A DNA stretch of 24,658 nt from a virus, in IMG/VR virus record IMGVR_UViG_3300025652_000519, positions 1 through 24,658 of that record; one strand, given 5' to 3'. This document shows positions 4,099 through 24,658 of this stretch, one piece after another. Below the pieces are notes generated by a model. That model saw only the letters and a program-made list of their open reading frames with translations, ran no database searches and had not been told where the DNA came from. Position 1 is the first letter of the stretch. Every line of letters begins with the position of its first letter. The position numbers were made by a program, and so were the translations under genes.

Positions 4099-6105
4099 TT
4101 ATGGACAAGTCCCCCATACTGGTCTTGAATTAGGTAATGTCCAAGCTGTAGCACCATCGTCAAATACAGCTGGCTCAGAAGCAATATTAGTAACACACCA
4201 TCCAGATAGATCTTGATTGAACGCTGCTGCATCTCTAAACATATAGGTCATTGTTGTTACACTAGAAACATCCCAATTACCAATGTCTTGATTAAATGAA
4301 CTTGCATTAAAGAATATCCATTCCATATTCTCTACACTAGAAACATTCCAATTGCCAATGTTTTGATTGAATGAAGTTGCATTATAGAACATCCTAGACA
4401 TATATAGAGCTGCTGAAGTATTCCAGCTACTTATATCCTGGTTAAATGATGAAGCTCCAGCAAACACCTCATTCATGTTAAATGTATTTGAAACATCCCA
4501 ATTACTTATATCCTGATTGAAAGACGAGGCTCCATTAAACAATTGAATCATACTTGTAACATTGGATACGTCCCAAGAAGAAATATTGTCATTAAATGAA
4601 GTCTGATTTTGAAAAACAGATGTCAAATCAGTAAGTCTAGTAGTCACTACAGTAGACATATCCCTACCAGATCCTAATGCTTGAATTAATGTAGTCCTAT
4701 TGCTAACCACTAAATATGTAACACCATTTAATTCATATTCTTGCCCAGAAACAGCTGCTGGATAAGCAGAAACAGTTACACCATTAGGTTTTAAATATAA
4801 AAACTCACCAGGGCTTGATGTTGTAGTCGTTGTCGTTGCAGGAGCAGCCGTTGTTGTTGTAGGTGCAGCTGTAGTCGTTCCTAATGTTGTAAAAGTAATT
4901 ATAGTACCTACTGAATCACCTGCACCATTTTCTGCCCAAGCTTTGTATCTATATTGTGTGTTAGGAGATAATCCTGATAAACTAAATGTGAAAGCTCCTG
5001 CGGCAGATCCACTTACTAATTCTACATTATCTGTTCTTGCAGGTTGCGCTGCTCCTTGTACCCAAAAGAATCCCTTTGTAAAATATGGAGGATTTCCTAG
5101 TTGTAAAATATTACCCCTGATTGTAGCTGAGTTAGATGTTATATCTTGATATGATTGACTTACTACTTGAGGATAAGCAAAAGGTGCTGCTGCTGTTGTT
5201 GTCGTCGTAGTCGGAGCTGCTGTTGTAGTAGTAGTAGGTGCAGCTGTTGTTGTTGTAGTACTGGTAGTACTGGTGGTGGTTGTAGGCGCTGCTGTCGTAG
5301 TGGTAGTAGGTACTGCGGTGGTGGTAGTTGTGGTGGGCGCTGCTGTTGTTGTCGTCGTTGTAGGCGCTGCTGTTGTTGTCGTTGTTGGATCAACACATCC
5401 AGTTAGTCCAGTGATAGTAACATTTCCAACACTAAAACCAGATGAAGTAGTTCCTCTTACCTTGTAAAAAACTGAAGAAGACTCAACTCTGTCGTTTATA
5501 GACAAAGATATTGCGCCAACTTCTTGTCCAGTTCTGAATCCAACAGCTCCATCGCTACATCTTTCTAATGAATAGAAAACCTGTTGTGTCGTTGTGGTTG
5601 TAGTTGTAGAGGGTTTTGCTGCGGCGTCTGTGGTTGTTGTTGTTACAGGAGCTTGAGTTGTTGTTGTTATCGGAGAGTCTCCAATGTTTATTAAGTTACC
5701 AATACCTTGAACAGATAAAAGCTCAGTCTTAACCTCATCAATAGCATTCCTTCTTATATAAGAATATTTAAAGCCCTCCTTGTTTTCAAAGTCAGCCTTA
5801 TTAACATGCCCTGATTCTAGATCAGTAGAAACAGTTACATCCCACTCCTTGGAGTCTCCTTCTATTTCTATTGTTTTAAATATCTTTACCTCAGATGGAC
5901 CATCGTTAGCTACAAATTCTATTTCTGTTCCATATTGAGTGTTGTAGAAGTTGTTTCTAACGCCTTCAGTTTGGTTATGTATGTACAACTGACCATCCTT
6001 AAATGAAAAGAACTCGTTATTTAGGTTGACCATCATTTCTGGCTCGTAAGAGTGAAATGAAGTCCATCCCTTTACCTTTTCATCATAAGTAAGAGTCTTA
6101 GACAT
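4099..6105 (-). CDS. Modular adhesin: threonine-rich linkers, Fn3-like domain, BspA-type repeats
   Basis: A 668-residue virion adhesin candidate. In order: an N-terminal domain (1-145, beginning LTYDEKVKGWTSFHS, resembling structural proteins of other Bacteroidota phages); Thr linker 1 (about 147-173); a small Cys-containing beta domain (175-240); a long Thr/Ala/Pro linker 2 (241-307); a fibronectin type III-like domain (about 309-408, with SPNTQYRYKAWAENGAG near its end); Thr linker 3 (409-430); and a C-terminal domain (431-668) with six BspA/DUF285-type repeats of exactly 25 residues (Trp at 511, 536, 561, 586, 611, 636; core SSFNQDISxWDVSNVTxM). BspA-type repeats are known in bacterial surface adhesins, so receptor binding is the natural inference. 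No signal peptide is seen, as expected for a virion protein. The start at 6105 has an A/T-rich leader. Confidence 0.85.
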   Translation of the reverse strand: MSKTLTYDEKVKGWTSFHSYEPEMMVNLNNEFFSFKDGQLYIHNQTEGVRNNFYNTQYGTEIEFVANDGPSEVKIFKTIEIEGDSKEWDVTVSTDLESGHVNKADFENKEGFKYSYIRRNAIDEVKTELLSVQGIGNLINIGDSPITTTTQAPVTTTTTDAAAKPSTTTTTTTQQVFYSLERCSDGAVGFRTGQEVGAISLSINDRVESSSVFYKVRGTTSSGFSVGNVTITGLTGCVDPTTTTTAAPTTTTTTAAPTTTTTTAVPTTTTTAAPTTTTSTTSTTTTTAAPTTTTTAAPTTTTTTAAAPFAYPQVVSQSYQDITSNSATIRGNILQLGNPPYFTKGFFWVQGAAQPARTDNVELVSGSAAGAFTFSLSGLSPNTQYRYKAWAENGAGDSVGTIITFTTLGTTTAAPTTTTAAPATTTTTTSSPGEFLYLKPNGVTVSAYPAAVSGQEYELNGVTYLVVSNRTTLIQALGSGRDMSTVVTTRLTDLTSVFQNQTSFNDNISSWDVSNVTSMIQLFNGASSFNQDISNWDVSNTFNMNEVFAGASSFNQDISSWNTSAALYMSRMFYNATSFNQNIGNWNVSSVENMEWIFFNASSFNQDIGNWDVSSVTTMTYMFRDAAAFNQDLSGWCVTNIASEPAVFDDGATAWTLPNSRPVWGTCP
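4186..4653 (-). repeat. Six tandem 75-base repeats encoding BspA/DUF285-type units
   Basis: Conserved tryptophans recur every 25 codons without exception across six units, with the core FNQxIxxWxVSxxxxMxxMF. The DNA copies have diverged but remain clearly related, which would allow unit gain or loss by recombination. Confidence 0.85.
4816..4881 (-). repeat. Threonine-rich linker 3 of the adhesin
   Basis: Codons 409-430 encode mostly Thr with Ala/Pro spacers, between the Fn3-like domain and the BspA-type domain. ACN codons are mixed. Confidence 0.8.
5185..5385 (-). repeat. Long threonine-rich linker 2 of the adhesin
   Basis: Codons 241-307 encode runs of 4-6 Thr separated by AAP or AVP, with a TTTTSTTST variant inside. 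All four ACN codons are used, so this is not a simple DNA microsatellite. The composition resembles mucin-type linkers. Frames on the other strand here look like poly-Val or Cys/Gly proteins and are artefacts of the repeat. Confidence 0.9.
5587..5667 (-). repeat. Threonine-rich linker 1 of the adhesin
   Basis: Codons 147-173 hold three Thr runs broken by QAPV and DAAAKPS. They join the N-terminal virion-attachment domain to the first small beta domain. Confidence 0.8.
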
Positions 6106-6291: not shown

Positions 6292-7173
6292 TTACAGGAA
6301 TAAGTAGCCGTAGTCGTTATAATCTCCCCAATATGTATTTGTTTTTTCTGTATTTTCAGAGTCATATATAGAAAAGTGAGATGTAAAATGAATACCATGA
6401 TTTACATGTACTGATGGGTTTTTAGTCTCCCAAGTCCTCCTAACCACTCCCTCCTGTGGTTCTATTAATCCACTATTTGTTCTTAGCGCATTTGCTAATA
6501 TCTTCTCACAGTGCTCTATAGCCTCATTAAACCTCATAGTCATTTGGTGAAATGGCTGATCATCTTGTTTTCTTTTCTGAAATCCTTTTTCACATAAACC
6601 AATGTAGTTCATATTGGTAAATACACAGTTAACAAATCCAGTGTCGCTAAAGCTAAAATAATCTTCAGGATACATTACGTCGTGCTCTAAAAAACTTACA
6701 AACTCGTAATCTCCTGTTTTTTCAGCGTAATACAGACACTGCATTATTTGTAGTAACTGGTTTAAGTGACCACCGCTTTGCATCCAAGAATTTAATTCTA
6801 TAAATGGGTTGTTTGGTATTGGATTCCAAACACAGGTAATTATATCTGCCACACCTTCTGCTGCCTTTTCTATCGTCTGTAATGACTTTTCAATAGCAGG
6901 AAATGTTTTTGGGTTTTTGTTATTGGAATAAAATACTCCTAACCTTTTGTTGCTTTGTGGCTTTATAATTAAATAATCACCCTCTATGACTTCCTTAGAT
7001 AGACTTTCTCCGTTAAATGTATAGTCAACTATTAGTTTCTTAACTTTTCCATACAAAGTGTCTCCTATAATGTTATTAGAAGCCCTTACGCTTAAACTTC
7101 CTTTCTTTACTAATCTAGAGATTTCTTCTGTGCAATCTTTTCCTCCGTAGGTAGCTTTTTTTATTACAAGCAT
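6292..7173 (-). CDS. Glycosyltransferase-like protein with an N-terminal DUF3395-like domain
   Basis: A 293-residue protein in two parts. Residues 1-72 form a small beta domain with the pattern ATYGGKDCTEEI...SVRASNNIIGDTLYGKVKKLIVDY, which I recognise tentatively as DUF3395-like. Residues 75-293 look like a GT-A glycosyltransferase. The segment 109-117 (ADIITCVWN) could be an early beta strand, and 158-169 reads FVSFLEHDVMYP, where E163-H164-D165 occupies the place of a DxD metal/sugar-nucleotide motif after a hydrophobic strand. A His-rich stretch (H256, H259, H262, H266) may supply metal or acceptor contacts. Its start overlaps the upstream glycosyltransferase gene by 10 bases, implying coupled translation. 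Donor sugar and acceptor are not readable. The neighbourhood suggests action on the adjacent Thr-rich virion proteins, or alternatively on host glycans. Confidence 0.68.
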   Translation of the reverse strand: MLVIKKATYGGKDCTEEISRLVKKGSLSVRASNNIIGDTLYGKVKKLIVDYTFNGESLSKEVIEGDYLIIKPQSNKRLGVFYSNNKNPKTFPAIEKSLQTIEKAAEGVADIITCVWNPIPNNPFIELNSWMQSGGHLNQLLQIMQCLYYAEKTGDYEFVSFLEHDVMYPEDYFSFSDTGFVNCVFTNMNYIGLCEKGFQKRKQDDQPFHQMTMRFNEAIEHCEKILANALRTNSGLIEPQEGVVRRTWETKNPSVHVNHGIHFTSHFSIYDSENTEKTNTYWGDYNDYGYLFL

Positions 7174-8066
7174 TCTTTTAGTATTTCGTAATATTTATAA
7201 CTTGCCTTAGTGTTGTCTATAACAAGATCTTTTATTGGGAATTGATTTATATAATTTCCTTTATAAAACAACCCATCTGAAGCAGATGTAACTCCAGCAT
7301 TGTGATATATAGCCTTAGAGTTCCAGTTTTCTATAGGATCAGTAGCAAACATAAAATCTAATTCACTTATTACTAGCGTCTGCTTTCCTTCCTTCCAAAG
7401 ATTCCAAAGAACCGCCCACATATCAGCGCACCATATTTGTATATCGTGATAGTCTGGATTTTCTTTCTTCTTAGCGGCACTCAACCTGCTAACTAAGTAA
7501 TACATATTTTGACAATCAGCCTCTACTTTTAGCCAAAAACCTTCATTTATGCTTTTTAAAACATATTGCGCTCCTCCTGAGTTAGCTTGGTTTTTTATAA
7601 CTAATTCAGGGTCTATGCGGCAAGCATTAGTCATTTCTTCAAAAACATCTTGACCTTTAGATATTATATAGTCGTATCCTATATAAGAAATTGTATCTGA
7701 CAAATAACAAGCAGCACCATTTTCAAGCAAATCAACATTAAGAGGTCTGGTTAATACTATATCGCAATCGTGATAAAATATAGTTTCCTTACTCAATTCT
7801 GGATGCTCTTTAAAATGCTTAAAAAGTATGTGAGGCCTTATGGAAGATATATAGTGTTTTATATTTCTAGTGTCTTCATAAAAATAAAAATTAGCTCCTT
7901 CATACTTTTGTTTTAACACTTCAAAATGAGGGTCTATATCTCCATGAATAGCGTTTACCAATATTACATCAGACAAGTTAACGCCTTGATTCACAAAACT
8001 GTGAAGCATAACGTCAATTTGCCAGGCGTAGTATTTAGTTGCAGGTTGTGCTGATAAATATTTCAT
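7164..8066 (-). CDS. Glycosyltransferase-like protein resembling peptidyl Ser/Hyp O-glycosyltransferases
   Basis: A 300-residue cytosolic protein without signal peptide or membrane segment. The N-terminus reads KYYAWQIDVMLHSF (11-24), which resembles the xYxxWQxxxxxxSxxK start of plant hydroxyproline O-arabinosyltransferases and algal peptidyl-Ser galactosyltransferase. Residues 96-109 (IFYHDCDIVLTRPL) give a DxD-type motif (D100, D102) after a hydrophobic strand. Residues 210-224 (QIWCADMWAVLWNLW) match the position of the xMW motif of that family, and H255-N256-A257-G258 followed by LFYKG (266-270) closes the fold. The family match is from memory. The gene starts 1 base after the stop of the muzzle gene and overlaps the next glycosyltransferase-like gene by 10 bases, so all three are probably translated together. 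Substrate is inferred, not shown. Confidence 0.7.
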   Translation of the reverse strand: MKYLSAQPATKYYAWQIDVMLHSFVNQGVNLSDVILVNAIHGDIDPHFEVLKQKYEGANFYFYEDTRNIKHYISSIRPHILFKHFKEHPELSKETIFYHDCDIVLTRPLNVDLLENGAACYLSDTISYIGYDYIISKGQDVFEEMTNACRIDPELVIKNQANSGGAQYVLKSINEGFWLKVEADCQNMYYLVSRLSAAKKKENPDYHDIQIWCADMWAVLWNLWKEGKQTLVISELDFMFATDPIENWNSKAIYHNAGVTSASDGLFYKGNYINQFPIKDLVIDNTKASYKYYEILKECL

Positions 8067-8067
8067 T

Positions 8068-11000
8068 TTAATCGAAAGTTATTGTTGCTTGTCCAGATGT
8101 CAGGAAGTCTGTTCCGTAATTCCAAGCGTATGTTACAAAAGTGTATCCGTTTTCTTGAACAATTATCTTATCTGCTAGGTCAGCGTAAGCAAATCTAACA
8201 GGAGGAGGAATAGTTCCTTGAAATGGAGTCCAATCAAATATTATTCCATTGAATGTTGTTGGTTCAGAGTGAGATCCCTCTTTTCTTATTCTAATTCTAA
8301 AGTCATTATTGTCTGTATCATATTGAATAAGTCTTATTTGCCAAGTTCCATCTAATCTCCACCACTGATCAGTCATTGACCCTTCAAATTCTCCATCTCT
8401 TATGAATCCAAATTTAGTATCGTTAAGCGGAACTGGAGCCCAAGATCCAGGGTAAACTATTTGATCTGGTGGCGCTGTAGAATTTATAATAAACGTATCT
8501 GTATCTGCTATAATTTCTTGACCAAGGTTATTCACCAAAACAAAGTCTATACTTCCAGTACCTCCGTTTACAGCGTTTATATGTTCATCCCAGCCAAAAC
8601 TACTAGACCATAGTTGGTTTACTATTGTGTGGAATTCATCTTTTCTTACTGTTACCGTATCGGTGCTTGTAGTTATTGTTATATCAACAAAAACATCTGA
8701 TGCATCTGATTGATACATTTCATATCCTAATATTCTAGGAGCCTCAGATACGCTAGTCACATTGATCGTCCCTGTTGGATTAGTAGGGGCTATCGTAGTA
8801 GTGCTAGTACTAGTTGTAGTAGTAGTGCTAGTTGTAGTGGTGCTAGTTGTGGTAGTCGTAGTGGTTTCTCCTGGAACAGTAGTACAGCCATTTACTTCAA
8901 CTGCTATCCAAGGTGTTTCATAGTAACAACCACCTTCAATAGGATCGTATGCATAAACATCAAATCCACTTGTGTCTAATCCGCAGTTGTTTCCTGCTGT
9001 AACTGTTAATTGACTACCGTTAATACTAACATCAGTCAAAGTACTTGCATCAGTAGAAGCATAGGTTAATTGAGCTCCGTCTGAATGCGTAAAGTAGTTA
9101 TCCAAATTAATTATAACACTTTGACCAATAGTTAATGTTTGAGTAGGTATGTCAGAATAACTTATTCTTTGCACACAAGCTGCCTGAGTAGTAGTAGTTG
9201 TAGTTGCTGGTGGCTGAGTTGTAGGGGCCTGTGTTGTAGTTGTCGTAACGCACTCATAAGTGTCCTCAAGCCATTGTTGCGATTGACAAGAATAAGTGTC
9301 TTCAAGCCATTCAAAAGACTCGCACTTTTTAGTTCCTTCTCTCCACTGTATAACTTTATCCCATACTCTTAAAACGTACTGCTGATTAACCGGGTCGTAC
9401 CCCGCCACTACATTAGAATTTATATGAAGATTATCATTAAACCAACTATTCATTCCATAGTCAGATATTGGAAACAATCCATTGCTGGCTAATCTAAGTA
9501 CTTTAGATCTTTTTTCGTCAGCAAAATACATAGCATCACTCCAGTTGACTATGCTGTACATATTATCAGTAACACCATATTGCCCTTGATAAGGAACTTC
9601 TTGTCCTAATACATTTGTATTTTGACTTAAATTACCTGATCCATCAGCATTATATAAAACACTTTTATTAAACAAAACCTTAGCTACTCTATTGCTTTGA
9701 AATGAAACTAAGTCCCCATCTCTAGATATTATTCTTGCTATTGGTCCAAAATTTGCATCTAAGTCTTTATAGTTTGCTAAGGATAGGTTAAACTCATTTA
9801 CTCCATTAAAAGAAGTAGTAGCTTCATAAACTTGGCTATACGTTAAAGAAGATATTCTTGTAACCTGCTTATAGTTGTCTAGTGGCACTAATGGTTTTGA
9901 ATCAAGAAGCATTTTGCTCTCGTTAAACGAGTCTCCTATTTTTATAGACTCGTATCCGTTATACCATCCGAAAGAATTAAAGAAATCTAGTTTTATTGTT
10001 GCGTTTACACCTCCAGAAGTTTGATTAGTGTCTCCGATTTTTCCTTGGTGGTATCCTCCTGATATATTGTATGTATATGGAAGCTCGTAAAAAACATCTG
10101 AGCTAGCATTTTTGTAATCAGTCTCTAGTATTATTGGATTATCAAGCTCTAATACCCTTAAGTCTATATCTATTCTAACCCTATTATCTCCAGTGTAATT
10201 ACATTCAGATAAAATACACATCCATAAATCACCACTAGACGCTATAGTTAAAGTTTCTTGATTTGACGATATGGCACCTCTTCTAAATAAAATTTCTCCT
10301 GAATCTTTAGGGTGTGAAACTTTAGAAAGAACATTGTCTTCCCAAAACCATTCCTCTAAATTTGCATAGTCTGCACTAGAAACAAATCTTTGATAAACAT
10401 ATCCAGTTAGGTTGTCAACTCCATTTTCTGACCTTGTATCATCATACTCTATGGTTATTATCGCACCTGCTTTTATTCCTTCAGTAGAAGATGTTTTTGC
10501 CTTAAAATTCATTATGGCTTTTCTACCATAATCATCAACGTCTCCCCCTCCATTCCAAGTAGAAGCTCTTGCAGAAGACTTCGCGCTTATTATCCACCTA
10601 TCATCTAATGTGTGCCCGGTAAATGAAGAAAAAGATATTGATATTCCTTCTCCTAAAGAAGATGTTCCTGACATTGCTATTGGGGAACTCCAAGACGTAA
10701 CCTTATTTTCTGCACAATCAAGAGATCTCCACTTGTAAGTGTCAGTTGATCCAACCGAAGCAACTTTTACTTCAAATCTTTTATCTGTTGTTCCGGAATA
10801 AGAGCTTGAAGCCAGATTAATATCGTTTATTCCCTCTCCATAAAAAACTGGAGATTCAACATAAGATATGTTATTTTGAAAGTTGTTTGGGTTGCTCGGA
10901 CTCCTAAAAGCGTATCCATCATAATTAAATGTATCTACCGATGTCTCGTCTAATGCAATCTCTTCAGTATCTAGCTTTATGTAGTTTCCAGGCTCTTGAA

Positions 11001-12531
11001 GTGTATTATCTGTTACATCTTCATCTAAAAAATTCCTGGTCTTTGGTTTTGCTTCTAATACCTTTACTTTAGTTGGCTTTGACTTAATTCCAGATGTATC
11101 TGATTTAAGGAACAAAAAGTCTCCTTCTTTTACTTTGTTTACATCTTCACCCTCTATTTTAACATAGGCATAAACTCCGTCTCTATAAAATACAACAGGG
11201 GATATTACATCATAATCGTTCCTGCTTTGTTTTACGAAGAACCTATAGTTAGTTGCCCAATCAGGTGCTTTAGATGATATTTGTACTGATAGGCTATTTT
11301 TTTTGTTGCATTTATTTATTGGAATATGAACAGTGTTGTTCTCGCTTGTTATTGGAGTTGTCATTCTTCCCTTTCCATCTAAATATGCAATAGCAACCTC
11401 ATAGTCCATATTAGACTTAACTGTATCGTGTGCCAACCCCTCTGTTCCAGAAGCAGACTCGTATGTAATACTTATAGATGTATTTACATCTTCAAAGTTG
11501 TTAGTAAGGTTGTAGTTTTCTGTGTAGTTCCCAAAAACAACACGCCCACCTATTATCTCTACCGTATTAGCTCTAATTGGAACATTATCGTAAAGCCTTA
11601 GCAATTGATTGCTAGGTAAAGCCTTATATATCTTGCTATTACTAAAAGTAAATGTTTGATCTGAATTGTCAGTCCACTCTTTGTCGCTCTTATCTAATCT
11701 CTCAACTATGTAAGCAGTAGAGACACCAGATTCCTTTGCAATAATTTCTATTTTTTTTACGTTATTGGATCCAGTATTAAATGAAAGATTAACCTTATTG
11801 TATCTATTAAACATTGATTTGTTTGTGCCTGAATTGTAGTCATATCTAAATGACTTAGGCATAAAAGCAAAATCAGAAAATGGAGCTAAAGCGCTTACCT
11901 CTCCATGCTCATATATATATCTGTATGAAAAAGAAAAGAATTTATCTTCTATATTGTTTTCTTCTGAATCGTCAGTCTCCTCTAAAGTAATAGCAGGAGC
12001 TGTTAGTGGTGACATTTTTATTAGCGAAACATCTTCCAGCAAAAAAGCACTATCTACTAAGGATCTGGCGGTTTCTATTTCAAAATACTTAGGCTCTGTT
12101 TTATTGTCTGTAGTTATTAGAAATCTTTTGTTGTTTTCAGCATCATTAAGTATAGATATACTTAAGCTTCTAACTTCATTAAACTTCAATATGTTTGAAG
12201 ATGAATTTCTTATATCTGAAAGAAGTATTGTGGATGTGTTTGTTTCTTTTACAAACTCACATATATATGATCCAACGCTAGAAGCAACTGCCCAGTATAT
12301 TCTACCAGATGCATCGTCTTCAACAACACCTATACACTTAGCTCCAGAGCCAAAAGATATATTAGATATTTTAGAATTAGAAAGAGCATTCTCTATAGCG
12401 CCAACATCTGAACCATCAGAGTTTGCTATTTTTACATTTAATGCGTCTCTATACTCTCCTTTAGGAACAAGTCTCTCATCAAGATCCTTGTTCATCTTTC
12501 CAGATGTAAATAAGTTTTTAACTTTCCCCAT
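8068..12531 (-). CDS. P22 gp10-like tail stabilization ('muzzle') protein with adhesin-like C-terminal extension
   Basis: A 1487-residue protein. The N-terminus (about 3-50, with SGKMNKDLDERLVPKGEYRDAL and SDGSDVGAIEN) is the signature I associate with stabilization/muzzle proteins of crAss-like and related podoviruses, which form the distal tail tip. The beta-rich body runs to about residue 1060, with YNADGSGNLSQNTNVLG and YFADEKRSKVLRL near its end. Then come two Cys-flanked WLEDTYxC units (about 1070-1093), a Thr linker (1096-1115), an Ig/cadherin-like domain (about 1118-1215, ending VEVNGC), a longer Thr/Ser linker (1223-1246), and a beta-rich C-terminal domain (about 1250-1487) that could bind a receptor. 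The start at 12531 shares one base with the upstream stop (TAATG). The core assignment is firm; the extension's role in adhesion is inferred. Confidence 0.82.
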   Translation of the reverse strand: MGKVKNLFTSGKMNKDLDERLVPKGEYRDALNVKIANSDGSDVGAIENALSNSKISNISFGSGAKCIGVVEDDASGRIYWAVASSVGSYICEFVKETNTSTILLSDIRNSSSNILKFNEVRSLSISILNDAENNKRFLITTDNKTEPKYFEIETARSLVDSAFLLEDVSLIKMSPLTAPAITLEETDDSEENNIEDKFFSFSYRYIYEHGEVSALAPFSDFAFMPKSFRYDYNSGTNKSMFNRYNKVNLSFNTGSNNVKKIEIIAKESGVSTAYIVERLDKSDKEWTDNSDQTFTFSNSKIYKALPSNQLLRLYDNVPIRANTVEIIGGRVVFGNYTENYNLTNNFEDVNTSISITYESASGTEGLAHDTVKSNMDYEVAIAYLDGKGRMTTPITSENNTVHIPINKCNKKNSLSVQISSKAPDWATNYRFFVKQSRNDYDVISPVVFYRDGVYAYVKIEGEDVNKVKEGDFLFLKSDTSGIKSKPTKVKVLEAKPKTRNFLDEDVTDNTLQEPGNYIKLDTEEIALDETSVDTFNYDGYAFRSPSNPNNFQNNISYVESPVFYGEGINDINLASSSYSGTTDKRFEVKVASVGSTDTYKWRSLDCAENKVTSWSSPIAMSGTSSLGEGISISFSSFTGHTLDDRWIISAKSSARASTWNGGGDVDDYGRKAIMNFKAKTSSTEGIKAGAIITIEYDDTRSENGVDNLTGYVYQRFVSSADYANLEEWFWEDNVLSKVSHPKDSGEILFRRGAISSNQETLTIASSGDLWMCILSECNYTGDNRVRIDIDLRVLELDNPIILETDYKNASSDVFYELPYTYNISGGYHQGKIGDTNQTSGGVNATIKLDFFNSFGWYNGYESIKIGDSFNESKMLLDSKPLVPLDNYKQVTRISSLTYSQVYEATTSFNGVNEFNLSLANYKDLDANFGPIARIISRDGDLVSFQSNRVAKVLFNKSVLYNADGSGNLSQNTNVLGQEVPYQGQYGVTDNMYSIVNWSDAMYFADEKRSKVLRLASNGLFPISDYGMNSWFNDNLHINSNVVAGYDPVNQQYVLRVWDKVIQWREGTKKCESFEWLEDTYSCQSQQWLEDTYECVTTTTTQAPTTQPPATTTTTTQAACVQRISYSDIPTQTLTIGQSVIINLDNYFTHSDGAQLTYASTDASTLTDVSINGSQLTVTAGNNCGLDTSGFDVYAYDPIEGGCYYETPWIAVEVNGCTTVPGETTTTTTTSTTTTSTTTTTSTSTTTIAPTNPTGTINVTSVSEAPRILGYEMYQSDASDVFVDITITTSTDTVTVRKDEFHTIVNQLWSSSFGWDEHINAVNGGTGSIDFVLVNNLGQEIIADTDTFIINSTAPPDQIVYPGSWAPVPLNDTKFGFIRDGEFEGSMTDQWWRLDGTWQIRLIQYDTDNNDFRIRIRKEGSHSEPTTFNGIIFDWTPFQGTIPPPVRFAYADLADKIIVQENGYTFVTYAWNYGTDFLTSGQATITFD
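8794..8865 (-). repeat. Threonine/serine-rich linker near the muzzle protein C-terminus
   Basis: Codons 1223-1246 encode almost only Thr with scattered Ser and one Ile-free core, joining the Ig-like domain to the terminal beta domain. Codons are mixed, as in the adhesin linkers. Confidence 0.85.
9187..9246 (-). repeat. Threonine-rich linker between muzzle core and Ig-like domain
   Basis: Codons 1096-1115 read as Thr runs separated by QAP and QPPA. The linker begins right after the second WLEDTYxC unit, at the point where the conserved virion body seems to end. Confidence 0.82.
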
Positions 12532-15006: not shown

Positions 15007-16344
15007 TTACTTCAATAAGATGAAGTTGTTTGCACCATGTACACATAAAGCTCTTTCAGATAAGAAGTGAACGCTCATTGCATCCAAGTCAGTGTTAGAA
15101 GCTCCACCAGCAGAACCAACAACCCAAGACTTATACTTTCTGTCTTCAGCTTCTGATTTTCTGTATTTAATGTGTAAGAAAGGACGAGTTGCATTCTTTC
15201 CTAAGATTTGATCGTAAACAGTAGTTGTACCAGCTGGAACAATAACTCCGTCAACACCAGCAGTTAATCCTCCTGTAGTTGCATCGTTTAAGTATTTCCA
15301 GTCAGTCTTGTAGAAATCATATCCTAAGTTGAAGCCCATGAAACCTAAGTTTAATGCCATAGACTCATCGTTGTCAAATAAACCGTAAGAAGCAGTAGAA
15401 GCTCCACTGTTGTTTTGAGCAGCAAGTACGTTGTCAATCTCGAAAGATTTAGTTCTGTTAACGAACATTACGTTTTCTTGAATTGCTCCTTCTTTGTCAA
15501 GAACTTTGATTAATTCTTCTAAATCTCCTCTAGAAGCGATAGAGCCAGTAGCAATATTTCCTCTGTTTTCGATTTCGTAGAATAAACCTTTTGTTCCTTT
15601 GTATCCTGCTGATTCAGCACCAGAAGATGCAGCAGCTGGACGTCCTTCGATCAAAGATAATTCTAGGTAGTCTTCGAAACGTAATCTTGTCTCATGCTCA
15701 GATTTTAAGTACCATAAGTATCCGGTTGCACCGTTCTCAGTAGTTACTTCAATCCATCCGATTTGAGCCATATCTGAACCATTAACCTCGTACTTATCTT
15801 TGATGATAATTGGGTTGTTAGTTAAAATGTCTTTTGGAGCCTCTAAAGATCCAGCCATTCCAGCAGTTCCTTTTTTGAATTCAGCACCGAAAGCAAAAAC
15901 TTTTAATCCAGTTGTGTCTAAAGCAGCAGCCAAGTTAGCATTCTCGTAAGAAGCAACTGTGAAAGTGTCAGTAGTTACACCAGTGATTAAAGCTTTTTCT
16001 TGTGTTCCGTCACCATCAGTAATAACTACTGTTTGGTTAACACGGAATGGGTGTGCAGCAGAAGTTACTACATCAGCAGATCTGGTTGCACCAGTTACAG
16101 CTAAATGTAAACGTCCTTGCTCTGCCCATTGGATTACGTCAGAAGCGAAAGGCATTTCAGCTCCGACCATTCTTAAAAAAGAAGATACAGATCTGTTTCC
16201 GTATTTTTCGAATTCTTTTTCGTAAACGTCTGGCAAGTACTGTGATGTGAACTCGATGTCAGATCCCAAGTAATTACTTGATAATGTTGATTTTGATGGA
16301 GAAGGAGTTAATGCTCCTTGTACTCCGGAAATTGATACACTCAT
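15007..16344 (-). CDS. Major capsid protein
   Basis: A 445-residue protein that forms the icosahedral shell, probably with an HK97-type fold. Evidence: it follows terminase, portal and scaffold; it has the usual length; and residues 41-80 (YEKEFEKYGNRSVSSFLRMVGAEMPFASDVIQWAEQGRLH in part) resemble capsid proteins of crAss-like and related phages. Residues about 81-155 are a Thr/Val/Ala-rich beta segment that looks like an inserted domain. The Gly/Ala-rich loop near 235-250 and helices with ENRGNIATGSIASRGDLEEL (about 255-280) fit the A-domain and spine regions. The start at 16344 has an A-rich leader (AACTTACAAAA). A strong hairpin follows its stop, as expected for a highly expressed gene with its own transcript end. 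Confidence 0.85.
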   Translation of the reverse strand: MSVSISGVQGALTPSPSKSTLSSNYLGSDIEFTSQYLPDVYEKEFEKYGNRSVSSFLRMVGAEMPFASDVIQWAEQGRLHLAVTGATRSADVVTSAAHPFRVNQTVVITDGDGTQEKALITGVTTDTFTVASYENANLAAALDTTGLKVFAFGAEFKKGTAGMAGSLEAPKDILTNNPIIIKDKYEVNGSDMAQIGWIEVTTENGATGYLWYLKSEHETRLRFEDYLELSLIEGRPAAASSGAESAGYKGTKGLFYEIENRGNIATGSIASRGDLEELIKVLDKEGAIQENVMFVNRTKSFEIDNVLAAQNNSGASTASYGLFDNDESMALNLGFMGFNLGYDFYKTDWKYLNDATTGGLTAGVDGVIVPAGTTTVYDQILGKNATRPFLHIKYRKSEAEDRKYKSWVVGSAGGASNTDLDAMSVHFLSERALCVHGANNFILLK

Positions 16345-17542: not shown

Positions 17543-19963
17543 TTACATGCCTATCATACCCTCTAATCCCGACCCTAGTGAGTCTTGACCATCGAAGTCA
17601 ATAGGATCTAAATCCTGCTGTCTTTGCTGTATTAATTTCGATTGTTGAGAGGCCTGCTTAGCAGTTCTCTTATCTTTTCTGTCTTCTTTGTATTTTTCTT
17701 TACCTAACTGAGACTGTATTTCTGCGCCTTTAATCTGACCGTCCATGCTTTTTTGCATTTGAATCAACCTAGATTTAAGCTCAAACTCCATTTGCATTCT
17801 TTGCAACTCATACTCAGACTTCATTTGTATAAGCTTAGCTTCTACTTCTCCTTCTGCCATTATTGTTTGTTGCTTACCTTGTTCTGCAACTTGTGCTGCT
17901 TGTTGGTTAGCTTCAGACTGTAGGGCAATGTTTTCTTGTTGTCTTTTCTGATCGAGTTTTTCTTTTCTTCTTTTTCTAACCTTAAGTAGTTGTGAAGCTA
18001 TCTTAACGTTCTTAACGCCTCTAATATCAATAGCATCATCTATATCAATCTTTCCAGCACTAAGAGATGTTTGAATATTCTGCTCTAGCATATTTCTTTC
18101 TTCTTCGTCTGGATGAAGCTCTATGTAGATACCAAAGTCATGTAAGTGTAATTCTTTTATTTCATCTAAAATATCTACGCTATGTCTTCCTATATTCTTA
18201 ATAAAGTCTTCTCTCATATCAGAGTACTCTAAAACATCAGAAACTCTATAGCTAATACACTCAGCTAGTCTTTGTGTTAAAAATATTCCTGCCTTTAGTA
18301 CATGTCTTGTTGCTGTGTTAGAATTTAACGCAGCTAACTTTTGAACACCAACTAAAGCACTTGGATCTGGAGTACTACCGTCTCTCGCTTCATTTAAGCC
18401 CGTTACAGAGCGTATCATGTTTAAGTTGTAGTTGTACATGTTTATTAAAGAAGAGATCTTTGAATTGGCTCCAGAAGAGGTTAACTCTTGTATTGGAATT
18501 TTACCATGATTGTATTCTCCTTCTTCATTGTAGGATCTACCTATAACAGACCCCGTTTGGAAGTACATATTCAATGCTTCTTGAGGGGTGTAGGATGCGC
18601 CATTCCCTAAGTTAATAGAAGAAAGCCCATCTATATCCATATATACACCATCAGGCATCATTTTAGATGTTACCTGCTGTAGCTTTAAGTGTGTAAGCTG
18701 TATTTGGTCTGCAAAAGGAATCATTCTTTTAACTAAAGAATCAATCTGTCCTCTATACATTCTAGGAGCAGTAACGATAAATGGAGCGTAAACTTTTTGA
18801 ATAGAAGACTTTGGTCTAACCATATTCTTCATTACTTCCCACTTAAGTATGTGATTTGTTCCCAAAACGAGAACACCTTCATACCATACGTCAATCTTCT
18901 TAGAAAGCTTTTCGAATCTTGCTTCTTCAGTTTTTGGAGGATTAAAAGAATCATCTTTCCTTAAAACCTTTTCTCCGCCTGTTGTAGTGACTTTCTTTTT
19001 GTATACGATAGTTTTATCGGTCTTGTAAGAAAAGTACAGGAGAGTGGCTGTATTGTGATCAAAATTGTCCACTTGGTATCCGCCCCTTGTTCCCTGGTAA
19101 GCATCCCACTTACTAGACATCTTAGATATTTCTTTTATGTCTTCAGTAGTTAAACTAGAGTCTATCTTTTTAAGCTCAGTAATATTAACATTCTTAACTT
19201 CTCCAAAATAGTAGCAATCCTCAAAGTTAGGATCCTCAGTAGGACTCCATATTAAGTTAGCTGGATCAACATAGTCAACCTTTATTCCATCGTGTAAGTT
19301 AAATGAATGCCTTAAAGCTGATATTCCAAGTATTGTAGCATCCTCATCTACTTGCCTTTTAATAAGCTCGTAGTTGTTTTGCTTCATAACTGTTTCAATA
19401 ACTTTTTCTTCAGCTATTTCAATATCATCTTTGTAATCAATCTGCATGTGTAAGTCAAGCTCATCATCGCTATCTGGTAGCATGTCTGGATCACCAGCAA
19501 ACATGTCTTGACCAAGCAAAGCTCCCATCTCTTCGAAGGCAGCCTTGTTACGCATTTCAGTTTGTATTTGGTTTTTATAGTTTGCCTTCTTGTTAGTAGA
19601 TACAGAGTCAACTGCTTCTGCCTTAACATCAAAAAGCCTGTTAGACATTCCGTTAACTACAATGTCTACAAACTTAGGTACAATAGGTACAGGAGTCCAA
19701 TCTAAGTTTAGATAAGATATATCTCCATTAATAGAAAGCTCGTTCTTGTACTTCTGTACAGACTGCTCTCCCATTGCATAAGTTCTTAATTTATGATATG
19801 TATCACGGTTGTTATAAAACCTTGAAGTTCCACTTTCTTTCCTGAACCATTCAGACTCTATTGCCCTTCCAACTATGAGTCCATAGTCCTTAGAAGACTT
19901 CTCAGAATCAGATGCTAATTGATCAGGGAATCCAATGGCGTAATTCACTGGAGATTTATCCAT
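17543..19963 (-). CDS. Portal protein
   Basis: An 806-residue protein directly after TerL, with a 4-base gap. The dodecameric portal is the channel through which DNA enters and leaves the capsid and the site where terminase docks. Residues 60-106 (ending NLDWTPVPIVPKFVDIVVNGM) match the conserved N-terminal part I know from portals of Bacteroidota podoviruses. A Asp-rich loop lies at 157-180 (GDPDMLPDSDDELD), and the wing and clip region contains KVDYVDPANLIWSPTEDPNFEDC. Residues about 663-785 form a long charged/Gln-rich helix (EGEVEAKLIQMKSEYELQRM), consistent with a barrel or C-terminal coiled coil, and the tail is acidic and Gly-rich. It is longer than many portals (450-700), mostly because of that extension. 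Confidence 0.85.
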   Translation of the reverse strand: MDKSPVNYAIGFPDQLASDSEKSSKDYGLIVGRAIESEWFRKESGTSRFYNNRDTYHKLRTYAMGEQSVQKYKNELSINGDISYLNLDWTPVPIVPKFVDIVVNGMSNRLFDVKAEAVDSVSTNKKANYKNQIQTEMRNKAAFEEMGALLGQDMFAGDPDMLPDSDDELDLHMQIDYKDDIEIAEEKVIETVMKQNNYELIKRQVDEDATILGISALRHSFNLHDGIKVDYVDPANLIWSPTEDPNFEDCYYFGEVKNVNITELKKIDSSLTTEDIKEISKMSSKWDAYQGTRGGYQVDNFDHNTATLLYFSYKTDKTIVYKKKVTTTGGEKVLRKDDSFNPPKTEEARFEKLSKKIDVWYEGVLVLGTNHILKWEVMKNMVRPKSSIQKVYAPFIVTAPRMYRGQIDSLVKRMIPFADQIQLTHLKLQQVTSKMMPDGVYMDIDGLSSINLGNGASYTPQEALNMYFQTGSVIGRSYNEEGEYNHGKIPIQELTSSGANSKISSLINMYNYNLNMIRSVTGLNEARDGSTPDPSALVGVQKLAALNSNTATRHVLKAGIFLTQRLAECISYRVSDVLEYSDMREDFIKNIGRHSVDILDEIKELHLHDFGIYIELHPDEEERNMLEQNIQTSLSAGKIDIDDAIDIRGVKNVKIASQLLKVRKRRKEKLDQKRQQENIALQSEANQQAAQVAEQGKQQTIMAEGEVEAKLIQMKSEYELQRMQMEFELKSRLIQMQKSMDGQIKGAEIQSQLGKEKYKEDRKDKRTAKQASQQSKLIQQRQQDLDPIDFDGQDSLGSGLEGMIGM

Positions 19964-19967
19964 ATTG

Positions 19968-22253
19968 TTACTTAAGTATTGAGCTAACTAAACCGTTATT
20001 ATTATACTTTGCAAAGTTAACATTTATTATTTTATTAGTTTTCTCAGGCTTAATTAGATACTTTTGGTTAGCCATAAGCGCTAAACCAGAGGAAACAGTG
20101 GCATCAAACTTAGTTCTCTTTGATATATCATAGTTCGCCCAGTCCAATAAAGTCCTTGTAAAGTACATACTTCCAGAGCCTTGTTCTGTATATCCTACAT
20201 TCTGCTCTATGTATGACTCGATAGCTTCTGCATGTATTGATATAACAGCAGTAGAAGATGGTATACCACCTAGTTCTTTTTCGGCTTTAGATAAGTCGTT
20301 TTTGTGTTTGTCAGGTCTATTTATGCTCCACTTCCTATAACCTCTGTTCTTTAAGTGATACAAAAGCCTAGGTTTGTTATTCTCGACTAGTATAGGCATT
20401 CCGTAAAACACCATAGCCATTAGAACATCTTCATAGAACAACTCTGCTGTTTGTGGTCTTGATATGTACTCTAAAAAGAACATATTAGAAGGTCCCTCAA
20501 AGTTTAACTTAGTAACTCCATGTAGGGCGCCATTAGATCCACCTCCACCTACAGTTCCAGAAATATCATAACTATCACATCCGAATGCTCCAATATGTTC
20601 GTTGCCTGGAGATTTAACTCCGTTGTTCATTACAACTCTATTTCTAAGTTCAGGCTTGGGCAACCAAGACACAAAGAATCTTCCTCTATTGTCTGGAGTC
20701 CATATAACTTCAGTATCCTTCTTTCCGTTTCTCCAAGAGAAGCTTCCACGCATTACGGCTCTTTGACCTTCTATACCATCGTTATAGTCTATCTGCTCAT
20801 ATATTCTTTGCAGATTAAACAAACTATTGTTTGCCTCATCTCTAAAAGCATGACCCTCTGTTCTAGGGAATTGTCTGTAAAACTCATTTAACGCATCAGG
20901 ATCGCTTTTAAGAGACTTTACTTCGTTTTCCCAGTAATCTATTACCCCACCACTTATAATGCCGCCATAGGGATCGAAAATAGGGTCCTCGGAGTTCCTG
21001 AAGACTGGTTGTCCATATACATCTATATATCCTTCAAAATTCCATTCCATAGGGATGAAAAGTGAATACATTCCGCTTTTGGTTTGACCATTCTCATTTC
21101 TTTCTAAAACATCAGAGTCTTCGTAAAGTTTTTTGAAGTTTGCTCCACCTTTATCTAAAGCGTTAGAGGTGGATCCCATTAAACACTTGCCAACGATGTT
21201 TCGTCCAAGCCTTAGTGTTGTTTTAACTACACGCCAGTTATTTAGAATATTATCTGGAGGTAACCACTTACCTGATTCATCGTGTATTAAAAGTCTGAGC
21301 TTTTCACCATCGTAGGAGTTATCACCGGTGTTCTTCCAGTCGATGGTCGTATCAAGTCCCTGTAATTCAGCTTGGGTATCGGTTGCTTGAACGATGGACT
21401 TTCTTGTAAGCTTGGAGGCGGGGACACGGTACGCAAGTTCCGTTTTCGGTCTGTCCATTCCGTCTTGTATTGGCTTGAAGAAAAACGGATAGTTGATTGA
21501 TATTGGGACCACCTTGTCTGTAAACAGTTTCTTAGCATCAGATCCAGTCTTAGAGAGTATTCCGAATCTAGCATCCGAAGATATTGTTGCCATATTAACC
21601 GCTGCTCCGCTTGCCATGAAGCTAAAACCGGACCTCCTATTCTTAAGGTAGCACATCCCATAGCATCTATTGTCGGCCTGGCAAGCTTCCCAGAATATGA
21701 AGAATAATCTGTTTGCCTCTCTAAACTCTGGCTGCCCAACATCAATCTTGGTCCACTGCAAGTACATGTAGTGAGTGCCAGTAAGATAAGTAGGAATCCC
21801 CTTGTTATAAAACCAAAAACCTTCATCTCTTTTTGTAAATTCATCTTCTATGTAATCTACCCAATCGTTTTTAAATGCGTTAGGCATCTCGTTCCAATCA
21901 AAAATAGTCTTTATTCTGGAAAGTTCTTTTGGGTATTCGATTACCTCCCAGTATTGCTCAGATTCTTTGTTACTTCTTTTATGTACGTTATCCTGTACAG
22001 AAGGCAAAGCTATTTTTAAATTTTGTATCTCTATTATATCACCTATAGTTCCGTCTTTAGATATAACAACAATATCGTAGTCTGGGTTGTATCCATAATC
22101 CCAGGCTTTCTTTTTGTTTTTATTCTTTATAACGGTTTCAGATACTACTCCAGATAGAACAGTGCAAAGCCTAAGACTTTCTACTTCTTCGTTCTGCAAA
22201 GCTTTGGAATCCTGTATCTTTTCCTTTACTTGTTTCAGATTCGTCCTCGCCAT
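19968..22253 (-). CDS. terL: Terminase large subunit (packaging ATPase and nuclease)
   Basis: A 761-residue motor that cuts concatemeric DNA and pumps it through the portal. Residues 201-212 (CYLKNRRSGFSF) are a Walker A-like motif of the deviant, Arg-rich type seen in terminases; 320-326 (RLLIHDE) is Walker B with catalytic D325-E326; 358-364 (LMGSTSN) fits the coupling motif. The C-terminal nuclease shows D560 (FGCDSYD) and a later acidic site around D717 (KFDATVSSGLALMA), as in RNase H-fold terminase nucleases. Residues 52-85 (DYGYNPDYDIVVISKDGTI and following) match an N-terminal region I recall from Bacteroidota phage terminases, supporting this start. It overlaps the gene above by 83 bases. 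Confidence is high. Confidence 0.93.
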   Translation of the reverse strand: MARTNLKQVKEKIQDSKALQNEEVESLRLCTVLSGVVSETVIKNKNKKKAWDYGYNPDYDIVVISKDGTIGDIIEIQNLKIALPSVQDNVHKRSNKESEQYWEVIEYPKELSRIKTIFDWNEMPNAFKNDWVDYIEDEFTKRDEGFWFYNKGIPTYLTGTHYMYLQWTKIDVGQPEFREANRLFFIFWEACQADNRCYGMCYLKNRRSGFSFMASGAAVNMATISSDARFGILSKTGSDAKKLFTDKVVPISINYPFFFKPIQDGMDRPKTELAYRVPASKLTRKSIVQATDTQAELQGLDTTIDWKNTGDNSYDGEKLRLLIHDESGKWLPPDNILNNWRVVKTTLRLGRNIVGKCLMGSTSNALDKGGANFKKLYEDSDVLERNENGQTKSGMYSLFIPMEWNFEGYIDVYGQPVFRNSEDPIFDPYGGIISGGVIDYWENEVKSLKSDPDALNEFYRQFPRTEGHAFRDEANNSLFNLQRIYEQIDYNDGIEGQRAVMRGSFSWRNGKKDTEVIWTPDNRGRFFVSWLPKPELRNRVVMNNGVKSPGNEHIGAFGCDSYDISGTVGGGGSNGALHGVTKLNFEGPSNMFFLEYISRPQTAELFYEDVLMAMVFYGMPILVENNKPRLLYHLKNRGYRKWSINRPDKHKNDLSKAEKELGGIPSSTAVISIHAEAIESYIEQNVGYTEQGSGSMYFTRTLLDWANYDISKRTKFDATVSSGLALMANQKYLIKPEKTNKIINVNFAKYNNNGLVSSILK

Positions 22254-23247: not shown

Positions 23248-24658
23248 TTAAAATTGATTAGCAAATGCCATATAGATATATGTGTCCCCGCTCCCGTTAG
23301 CCGCCGAACTTGTTTGCACTAATGTAAACCCATCAGAATCAAAATTAACGTGATGAGTAAAATAATCCACAAATTCTGCATCAGATGTGTTGGCAAGTAA
23401 TAAATCATTTCTTGGGTTAGACGGACTTCTTTTGTTATCATAAATAACCCAATTTTCTCCACTTGTACTTGTGCGCTTAAACATTATAAAAGCAGGCTCA
23501 AAATCTGTTGTTATTTTTTTATTTGCAGTACCTCCTGCATAACTACCAAACTTGCTGAATCCTGCAACCTCTGCAAAGCAGTAGGCTATGAAATTTTCTG
23601 CGTTAGCATTAACATCTCCACTTGCTCCAACATAAAAAACATTTCCAGTAGGTGTTGTACTTTGAAAAATAGCCGCATCGCTTGAAGCCGCGTCTGTTGT
23701 ATTTAGTTTTAAATTTTGACCAGCCCCTATTGCTGAATGATAAACCCTCCAGTTTCTTCCTACTGTTCTATCTTTAATAATGATTACATCAGGAGAAATT
23801 CCCAATCCGTGACCGATAGTATTATTTACATCAGTACCTGTATAACTAACAATACTAAACCCAGCAGCAGGATTTGCACTAACAACAGAAGGAATACTAC
23901 CGTTACTGTTTATAGCAGGTATTTCTGCTCCTTTCCAATTCCAAGCTACATATGTATCTCCTGTTGCGTTTGAATTTCCGTTGCCTTTAATAGTGAACCC
24001 ATCATTATCAAAAGAATCTACAATATGTGGTACTGTTGTTCCTTCAGCTCCTGTTGATTGTGATATTAAAAAGTTTTCAGCACCCCTAATAGAATCTTGT
24101 AAAAAATGACCCCAAGACGCGTTGTTTCTACCCTTTAGCCATACTAAATCTGGCTGAAATCCAACCCCAGTGATTGGTCTTGTAGCTGAATAATCCCCTG
24201 TCCACAAAACAGTATTAAAACTATCTTCTAAAGAAGGTTCTACTGTTGTAGGGTCAGCAGCAAATGCCATATAGATGTATTCGCCGCCGCTTGCGTTTAA
24301 TTGTGGGTCACTTGAATTAACAGTAAATCCGTTTTCAAGGAAATTCATACCGTATGCGTCAAGGTTATTTTCAGCATTAGAAGCATTAGGCAATAAATAA
24401 GTTCCATTAGGATTTGTTGTATCTCTTTTATTATCCCATATAAACCAATTTGAACTACCAGCATCTGTTCTTTTAGCAATAATCATAGCAGGCTCAAAAC
24501 CTGTAACTACGCTTACATTACCAACAACTCCTGTACCAACATACGAACCAAAAGAAGAAAAGCCTTCTACTTCTGCGAAACAGTAGGCTATGTAGTCAAC
24601 ACCTGTATCTCCACCTTGTCTTATTACGGTATCATTTGTAATTGTGTCGCTAAGACCA
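23248..24658 (-). CDS. Repeat-containing virion structural protein, 5' end outside the window
   Basis: The frame is open to the right edge (57 codons beyond the first internal ATG at 24486, encoding the end of another repeat unit), so that ATG is not the true start. The visible 469 residues consist of units of about 90-120 residues sharing a pattern FxPDxxxxKxR...NWxxxD...R, then a DGFT stretch and an aromatic strand (YIYMAFA, YVAWNWKG or FIAYCFAEV). Three unit types follow in order, A-B-C, and then A again. The units are beta-rich with no enzyme motif. Similar repeats occur, to my memory, in tail-fibre or appendage proteins of marine phages, so a fibre or surface decoration is inferred. The C-terminal ANQF ends right after a unit, so the protein stops at a repeat boundary. 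Confidence 0.72.
   Translation of the reverse strand, partial: GLSDTITNDTVIRQGGDTGVDYIAYCFAEVEGFSSFGSYVGTGVVGNVSVVTGFEPAMIIAKRTDAGSSNWFIWDNKRDTTNPNGTYLLPNASNAENNLDAYGMNFLENGFTVNSSDPQLNASGGEYIYMAFAADPTTVEPSLEDSFNTVLWTGDYSATRPITGVGFQPDLVWLKGRNNASWGHFLQDSIRGAENFLISQSTGAEGTTVPHIVDSFDNDGFTIKGNGNSNATGDTYVAWNWKGAEIPAINSNGSIPSVVSANPAAGFSIVSYTGTDVNNTIGHGLGISPDVIIIKDRTVGRNWRVYHSAIGAGQNLKLNTTDAASSDAAIFQSTTPTGNVFYVGASGDVNANAENFIAYCFAEVAGFSKFGSYAGGTANKKITTDFEPAFIMFKRTSTSGENWVIYDNKRSPSNPRNDLLLANTSDAEFVDYFTHHVNFDSDGFTLVQTSSAANGSGDTYIYMAFANQF
23260..24276 (-). repeat. Super-repeat of about 999 bases (A-B-C cassette) in the right-edge gene
   Basis: The 18-base word AGCAAATGCCATATAGAT occurs at 23260-23277 and again at 24259-24276, exactly 999 bases (333 codons) apart. 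A second shared word, CAGTAGGCTATG, occurs at 23579 and 24581, 1002 bases apart. Both mark homologous unit ends (YIYMAFA and IAYCFAEV). Confidence 0.78.

Follow-up and report, generated by a model that had tools for sequence, protein, structure and literature searches.

Does a phage gene lying among virion genes encode an enzyme that decorates the virion itself? This question is raised by a 24.7-kb IMG/VR fragment (24,658 nt, hereafter the window), which carries a crAss-like structural module transcribed leftwards. A preliminary description placed at positions 7164–8066 a protein resembling plant hydroxyproline arabinosyltransferase (HPAT, family GT95) and algal peptidyl-Ser galactosyltransferase (SGT, GT96), and it was supposed that such a protein-directed enzyme in a tail operon might glycosylate an adhesin. 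The gene is real and its coordinates are correct, the coding strand being the minus one (8066..7164, 300 aa), while the plus strand of the same interval is riddled with stop codons. All motifs quoted from the product are indeed there: KYYAWQIDVMLHSF (residues 11–24), DCD (100–102), and ADMWAVLW (214–221). The protein matches phrog_4417, a PHROG family of “unknown function”, over its full length (E 2.4e-73), and the phrog_4417 glycosyltransferase (GT) has 304 confirmed relatives in IMG/VR and is found in 75 phage records at about 31–40% identity. The ATG of the GT gene lies 1 nt past the stop codon of the upstream gene, and there is a 10-nt overlap with the next gene.

PF25731, PF25729, the phrog_6681 terminase, phrog_13704, and phrog_14478 are all present in the window, as expected for a Crassvirales structural module. 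The genes are as follows:

22253..19968, minus strand: terminase (phrog_6681), by phrog profile match
19963..17543, minus strand: portal-sized ORF, taken as portal by position only
16344..15007, minus strand: virion protein taken as the major capsid protein (phrog_13704)
between the 16344..15007 protein and the muzzle-like protein: three small virion proteins
8068..12531, minus strand: crAss muzzle-like virion protein, 1487 aa, directly upstream of the GT (PF25731, E 2e-12; phrog_14478, E 1e-246); proposed substrate
7164..8066, minus strand: phrog_4417 glycosyltransferase, GT-A fold, 300 aa (DCD 100–102, HNAG 255–258, K269)
6292..7173, minus strand: second predicted glycosyltransferase, 293 aa (GT-A domain at about 73–260, EHD motif 163–165)
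4099..6105, minus strand: 668-aa virion/adhesin-like protein downstream of both GTs (crAss_MUZ_C domain, Thr-rich linkers, DUF285 repeats); proposed substrate

A DUF7483 protein is encoded at the edge of the fragment (23248–24486, E 2.6e-122), and in a number of related contigs a similar gene precedes the GT by several kb.

Fold and conserved residues of the phrog_4417 enzyme

The window GT was modelled with AlphaFold2 from its alignment with 45 IMG/VR relatives (46 members), and the model (pLDDT 96, pTM 0.92) has a GT-A glycosyltransferase fold. A Foldseek search of the PDB returned 198 matches at E ≤ 1e-3, those listed being GT-A glycosyltransferases; the best of them are GT24 UGGT structures (E 5e-7 to 3e-6), with a TM-score of only about 0.5. 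Structural alignment by VIA-align gave Z 14.7 for glycogenin (rmsd 3.6, 223 residues aligned), 14.5 for LgtC (rmsd 3.3, 227 aligned), 14.3 for the Skp1 galactosyltransferase 6mw5, 13.6 for UGGT, and 13.5 for LARGE1, the GT8 and GT24 matches spanning Z 13–14.7 across 205–239 residues. Since rows not more than one Z unit apart count as tied, a single closest family is not picked out among the best structural matches, i.e., GT8, GT24, GT6, the Skp1 galactosyltransferase, and LARGE1. Most of these fold neighbours (GT8, GT24, etc.) are retaining enzymes using UDP-sugars, and because they include both protein- and glycan-directed ones, the fold alone is silent on the acceptor.

D100 and D102 of the DCD motif, singled out in the preliminary description together with W217 as candidate catalytic residues, are invariant in every aligned member, both in the 46-member alignment and in an alignment of 19 divergent members, which come from phages of Bacteroidota and Bacillota. 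In the latter, W15, R67, P78, Q210, W212, M216, H255, G258, and K269 are invariant as well, D215 is frequently replaced by E, and the position of W217 is occupied by W, Y, or N, so that this residue is not invariant. By its place in the sequence order, H255 is a candidate for the late metal-binding His of GT-A enzymes.

Sequence searches of Pfam, NCBIfam, and PDB gave no name for the protein. In public annotations, its homolog is described as PqqD-like or as bearing an lpxB motif (Enterococcus 9183 gp095; vB_EfaS_140), and the fold supports neither. Kinship to plant GT95 found no confirmation: Pfam HPAT (PF23452) matched none of the 46 members and, at E ≤ 10, none of 19 diverse members, while hhalign of the phrog_4417 profile against HPAT gave a probability of 1.3%, the same range as for E. 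coli GT8 enzymes (0.9–2.2%; shuffled controls ≤0.9%). The HPAT probe sequence was verified against PF23452 (E 9e-128). There was no GT95 or GT96 structure among the fold-search matches listed. Nor was GT8 recognized by sequence, as Pfam GT8 matched none of the 46 or 19 members and hhalign detected no profile similarity (2.2% vs. waaO). Given that the HPAT tests are negative and the structural matches are GT-A enzymes, the claim of a GT-A fold holds, being borne out by AlphaFold2, Foldseek, and VIA-align, and the claim of GT95 membership is unsupported.

Threonine tracts and the enzyme

Runs of at least five Thr occur in the window only in the muzzle-like and 668-aa proteins, which flank the two-GT cassette; the latter protein contains 18% Thr overall. 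The tracts are as follows:

9178..9249, minus strand: Thr tract 1 of the muzzle-like protein, residues 1095–1118, VTTTTTQAPTTQPPATTTTTTQAA
8794..8865, minus strand: Thr tract 2 of the muzzle-like protein, residues 1223–1246, 20/24 Thr
5587..5667, minus strand: Thr tract of the 668-aa protein, residues 147–173, from the translation
5182..5394, minus strand: long mucin-like tract of the 668-aa protein, residues 238–308, 44/71 Thr, TTTTTAAP repeats
4810..4878, minus strand: Thr tract of the 668-aa protein, residues 410–432

The second enzyme of the cassette (7173..6292) is a predicted GT-A protein (pLDDT 89), whose residues 73–260 match GT2-type enzymes with a best Z of 15.6. It carries a FLEHDVMYP motif (EHD 163–165) and is without any family assignment; the first 70 residues make up a beta-rich part of their own, outside the structural matches. 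An ORF of this type is a close downstream partner of the phrog_4417 GT in some 20 other loci, and it recurs next to the GT in Bacteroidota-type phages.

In isolated phages, the gene immediately before the GT homolog usually encodes a capsid, tail, or small mucin-like protein with a poly-Thr stretch. Thus, the tail proteins of phiFL1A and phage 1706 carry the stretches ...TTTTTSTTTTTTSSTTTTTTTQASSK and ...TTTTTTTTTTHHD, respectively, and a poly-Thr neighbour of the GT is also present in iLp84, Iacchus, TPWB06, staphylococcal F1, and Chryseobacterium MA9V-3. For stand-alone homologs from Bacteroidota and Bacillota phages, the tract is usually a C-terminal tail of the major capsid or major tail protein. 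Relative to the GT, the tract gene is found at position −1 in 59%, at −5 to −2 in 3–19%, and downstream in 0–4%. Of 63 GT loci, 48 have tracts on the sense strand and one has them on the antisense strand. Their origin as DNA microsatellites was considered and ruled out by the mixed Thr codons, the sense-strand location, and the reversed pattern, which gave 0 matches. The Pfam Mucin model matches several of the Thr tails weakly. When crAss-like loci of 9 kb or more were compared, 59/78 GT-positive and 3/40 GT-negative loci had at least five Thr in a row, though this is a weaker test than a within-family one because the two sets were gathered by different queries. Some of the 78 GT-positive loci lack a long Thr run nearby; four or more Thr in a row are found in 71.

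The within-family test was built on homologs of the tailed proteins gathered regardless of the GT, to which GT-positive prophage loci with the same proteins were added; identical cores were scored once, and the trait was a homolog ending in a Thr tail. Over all the homologous capsid and tail proteins compared, 38/38 GT-positive and 1/46 GT-negative cases have the tail. This holds for the Bacillus-type tail protein (20/20 vs. 0/24, p 6e-13), the phiFL-type tail protein (4/4 vs. 0/16), and the Enterococcus-type capsid protein (14/14 vs. 1/6, the exception being a contig that ends just past the gene). On the tree of the Bacillus-type tail protein, tail and GT labels each need 11 changes and are concordant in 44/44 rows. 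Homologous sequences are not independent, and of the 11 independent pairs on the best tree only three lie on strongly supported branches, all in the same direction.

Moreover, among 39 GT-positive genomes that encode two tailed proteins, the two C-terminal tripeptides are identical in 24, with 3.0 expected (p < 5e-5). In the cases checked, one protein is the major capsid protein and the other a tail protein, tail tube, or connector, so they belong to different families. As these proteins are unrelated, their tags have the appearance of substrates matched to a single enzyme. Alternatively, the match could stem from tail DNA copied from one gene to another, although retention of the copies would still need a reason. 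The protein-directed role proposed initially is, therefore, strongly supported by genomic evidence, namely the co-occurrence of the GT with Thr tails on virion proteins. For the C termini of capsid and tail proteins as the target, this co-occurrence is likewise strong evidence, though of an indirect kind. “Adhesin” is too narrow a term since the tagged proteins in other phages are major capsid and tail-tube proteins.

The link has its limits. On the GT tree, a Thr-tract gene is near 57 of 63 stand-alone enzymes. A second GT domain is fused to 11 other homologs, all in a setting not obviously phage, and 10 of these lack Thr tracts, so that it is the stand-alone phage enzymes that are tied to the tracts. 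Ten fused homologs are from Bacteroidota genomes and one is on a Bacteroidota plasmid; since they are mostly without tracts, the phrog_4417 family is not exclusively a Thr-tail enzyme. In two of these loci (L306, L307, L309–L312, L316, L318, L323, L340, and L085) that were checked, the second domain is Glyco_transf_7C/GT2. A scan of bacterial genomes gave 49 GT loci, mostly in Bacillaceae, Lactobacillaceae, and Bacteroidota. Conversely, the phrog_4417 GT is near only 11 of 75 random viral loci with an in-frame run of seven Thr and is present in 3 of 50 further whole viral records; poly-Thr is thus widespread in viral proteins without this GT, and the tag alone does not predict the enzyme. Among the 25 most frequent Pfam families of genes beside Thr-tract genes in loci without phrog_4417, there is no glycosyltransferase. 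The two largest GT-negative contigs with pure C-terminal Thr tails, L181 (tails T12–T13, phrog_4417 absent from the whole record) and L292 (absent within the stretch fetched), each have a gene for a GT2 protein at another site. Thr tails may also be served by other GTs.

Two apparent exceptions were dropped. In bIL285, the capsid gene adjacent to the GT is tail-less, but the major tail protein encoded a few genes on has nine Thr. In Enterococcus phage 9183, one of the six stand-alone cases without a tract gene nearby, a Thr tail is encoded in the −1 frame immediately after the stop codon annotated for the capsid gene. Such a tail, absent from annotation, also follows the capsid stop in nattely and in a Listeria fleischmannii prophage (capsid genes with −1-frame tails: L087, 4595–5800; L351, 4538–5740; L308, 1932–3071). 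This position in the −1 frame suggests that in all three the tail is probably added by programmed frameshifting onto a fraction of subunits. In Arcanobacterium phage TPWB06 (L089, 5164–5926), the tail protein ends in TTTTTTTTTP, and the overlapping +1 frame continues with a poly-Thr extension of roughly 60 aa.

Proposed function and rival explanations

The GT-A fold, the conserved DxD, and the tight, repeated co-occurrence with Thr tracts of virion proteins argue that the phrog_4417 GT is a phage-encoded enzyme for O-glycosylation of poly-Thr tracts in the phage’s own virion proteins, a reading to which a probability of roughly 85% can be assigned. A cytoplasmic, metal-dependent GT-A enzyme would glycosylate these tracts before or during assembly, with Thr as the likely acceptor and Ser within the tracts probably O-glycosylated too. 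Judging from the fold neighbours, it would use a retaining mechanism and a nucleotide-sugar donor, probably a UDP-sugar. In the window, the phrog_4417 GT would add the first sugar to Thr-rich stalks of the muzzle-like and 668-aa proteins, and the second GT-A protein (7173..6292) might then extend the glycan. One may guess that the benefit consists in virion shielding, stiff hydrated stalks, or altered adhesion.

A broader proposal, for which the odds appear about even, is that phrog_4417 represents a widespread, transferable virion-glycosylation system in which one enzyme acts on a portable poly-Thr tag that capsid, connector, tail-tube, decoration, and crAss muzzle/adhesin proteins have acquired independently of each other. 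In some phages the tag would be read by frameshifting, on a fraction of subunits, and in crAss-like phages two stacked GTs would build a mucin-like coat on the tail stalks.

The same fold might serve other ends. Modification of a cell-surface polymer (teichoic acid, capsule, or LPS) that blocks superinfection, with the Thr tails unrelated, would fit the presence of the polymer-directed LgtC among the nearest folds and the second GT domain fused to cellular Bacteroidota homologs, an arrangement known from polysaccharide enzymes. However, the gene belongs to the late structural operon, where it immediately follows genes for capsid or tail proteins, and unrelated proteins gain and lose their Thr tails together with it, which makes this explanation quite unlikely. 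A modification of the Thr tails other than by sugar is very improbable: the fold is common to nucleotidyltransferases, but the nearest matches are DxD glycosyltransferases.

A further rival is membership of the enzyme in GT95/GT96, as a phage relative of the plant and algal Hyp/Ser glycosyltransferases. A YxxWQ-like start, an acidic metal motif, and a late H..G that follow one another much as in those enzymes, together with a weak collinear hhalign piece around residues 69–109, speak for such kinship, and GT95 itself has been predicted to be GT-A-like (PMC8476585). Against it are the lack of a Pfam HPAT match and the hhalign probability, which is lower with HPAT than with the GT8 enzyme waaO, and we regard the assignment as unlikely.

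Relation to known glycosylation systems

O-glycosylation of Thr tracts by the phrog_4417 GT would resemble several known reactions. HPAT and SGT also modify side-chain hydroxyls in Pro/Ser/Thr-rich proteins, but their acceptors are Hyp and Ser, rather than the Thr proposed here. Mucin-type O-glycosylation likewise takes dense Thr/Ser/Pro tracts as acceptors, whereas phrog_4417 would be a cytoplasmic enzyme of a phage, in contrast to the GT27 family. The GT8 enzymes (glycogenin, LgtC, WaaO/WaaJ) share with it the fold class, the DxD, and, by sequence order, a late H and K, but identity in structural alignments is only 5–13%. The catalytic domain of UGGT (GT24) is similarly of GT-A type and related to glycoproteins, but it glucosylates an N-glycan, not Thr.

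If the proposed reading is true, phrog_4417 acquires a function, and phage virion glycosylation, so far described in mycobacteriophages in the open-licence literature searched, extends to phages of Lactococcus, Lactobacillus, Enterococcus, Staphylococcus, halophilic bacilli, and Chryseobacterium and to crAss-like environmental phages. Given the co-occurrence of the GT and Thr runs across many unrelated phages, phages with sugar-coated particles are probably much more widespread than has been assumed. A Thr tail with a neighbouring GT provides a searchable sequence signature, and protein engineering would gain a candidate minimal tag/enzyme pair for O-glycosylation. The idea can be tested directly in the Lactococcus laboratory phages bIL285, 1706, and CHPC836. 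No published link between poly-Thr tails and phage GTs was found in the open-licence literature.

Virion glycosylation as such is known from mycobacteriophages; the enzyme family, the tag, and the hosts are new here. Freeman et al. (2023, Cell Host Microbe) are said to have described it for Che8, Corndog, and Myrna, with O-glycosylation reportedly at the C termini of capsid and tail proteins. According to two papers that cite this work, phage-encoded GTs of mycobacteriophages O-glycosylate capsid and tail-tube proteins, and this shields the virions from antibodies (PMC12363180, PMC11652166). The phrog_4417 GT, too, is phage-encoded, and its gene lies with the structural genes. However, Che8 gp108–110 are GT2/GT25-type enzymes by Pfam and thus of another family than phrog_4417, with hhalign probabilities of 0.1–0.2% and no hmmsearch match between them. 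Che8 lacks poly-Thr tails and has an actinobacterial host, in contrast to the poly-Thr tag and the Bacillota and Bacteroidota hosts of the present system. In Che8 (L475), the capsid protein (5051–5872) ends in ...FNKTGS and the tail protein (7613–8422) in ...YSDGS; the two share only the GS ending, a parallel to the matched tail ends of GT-positive phages.
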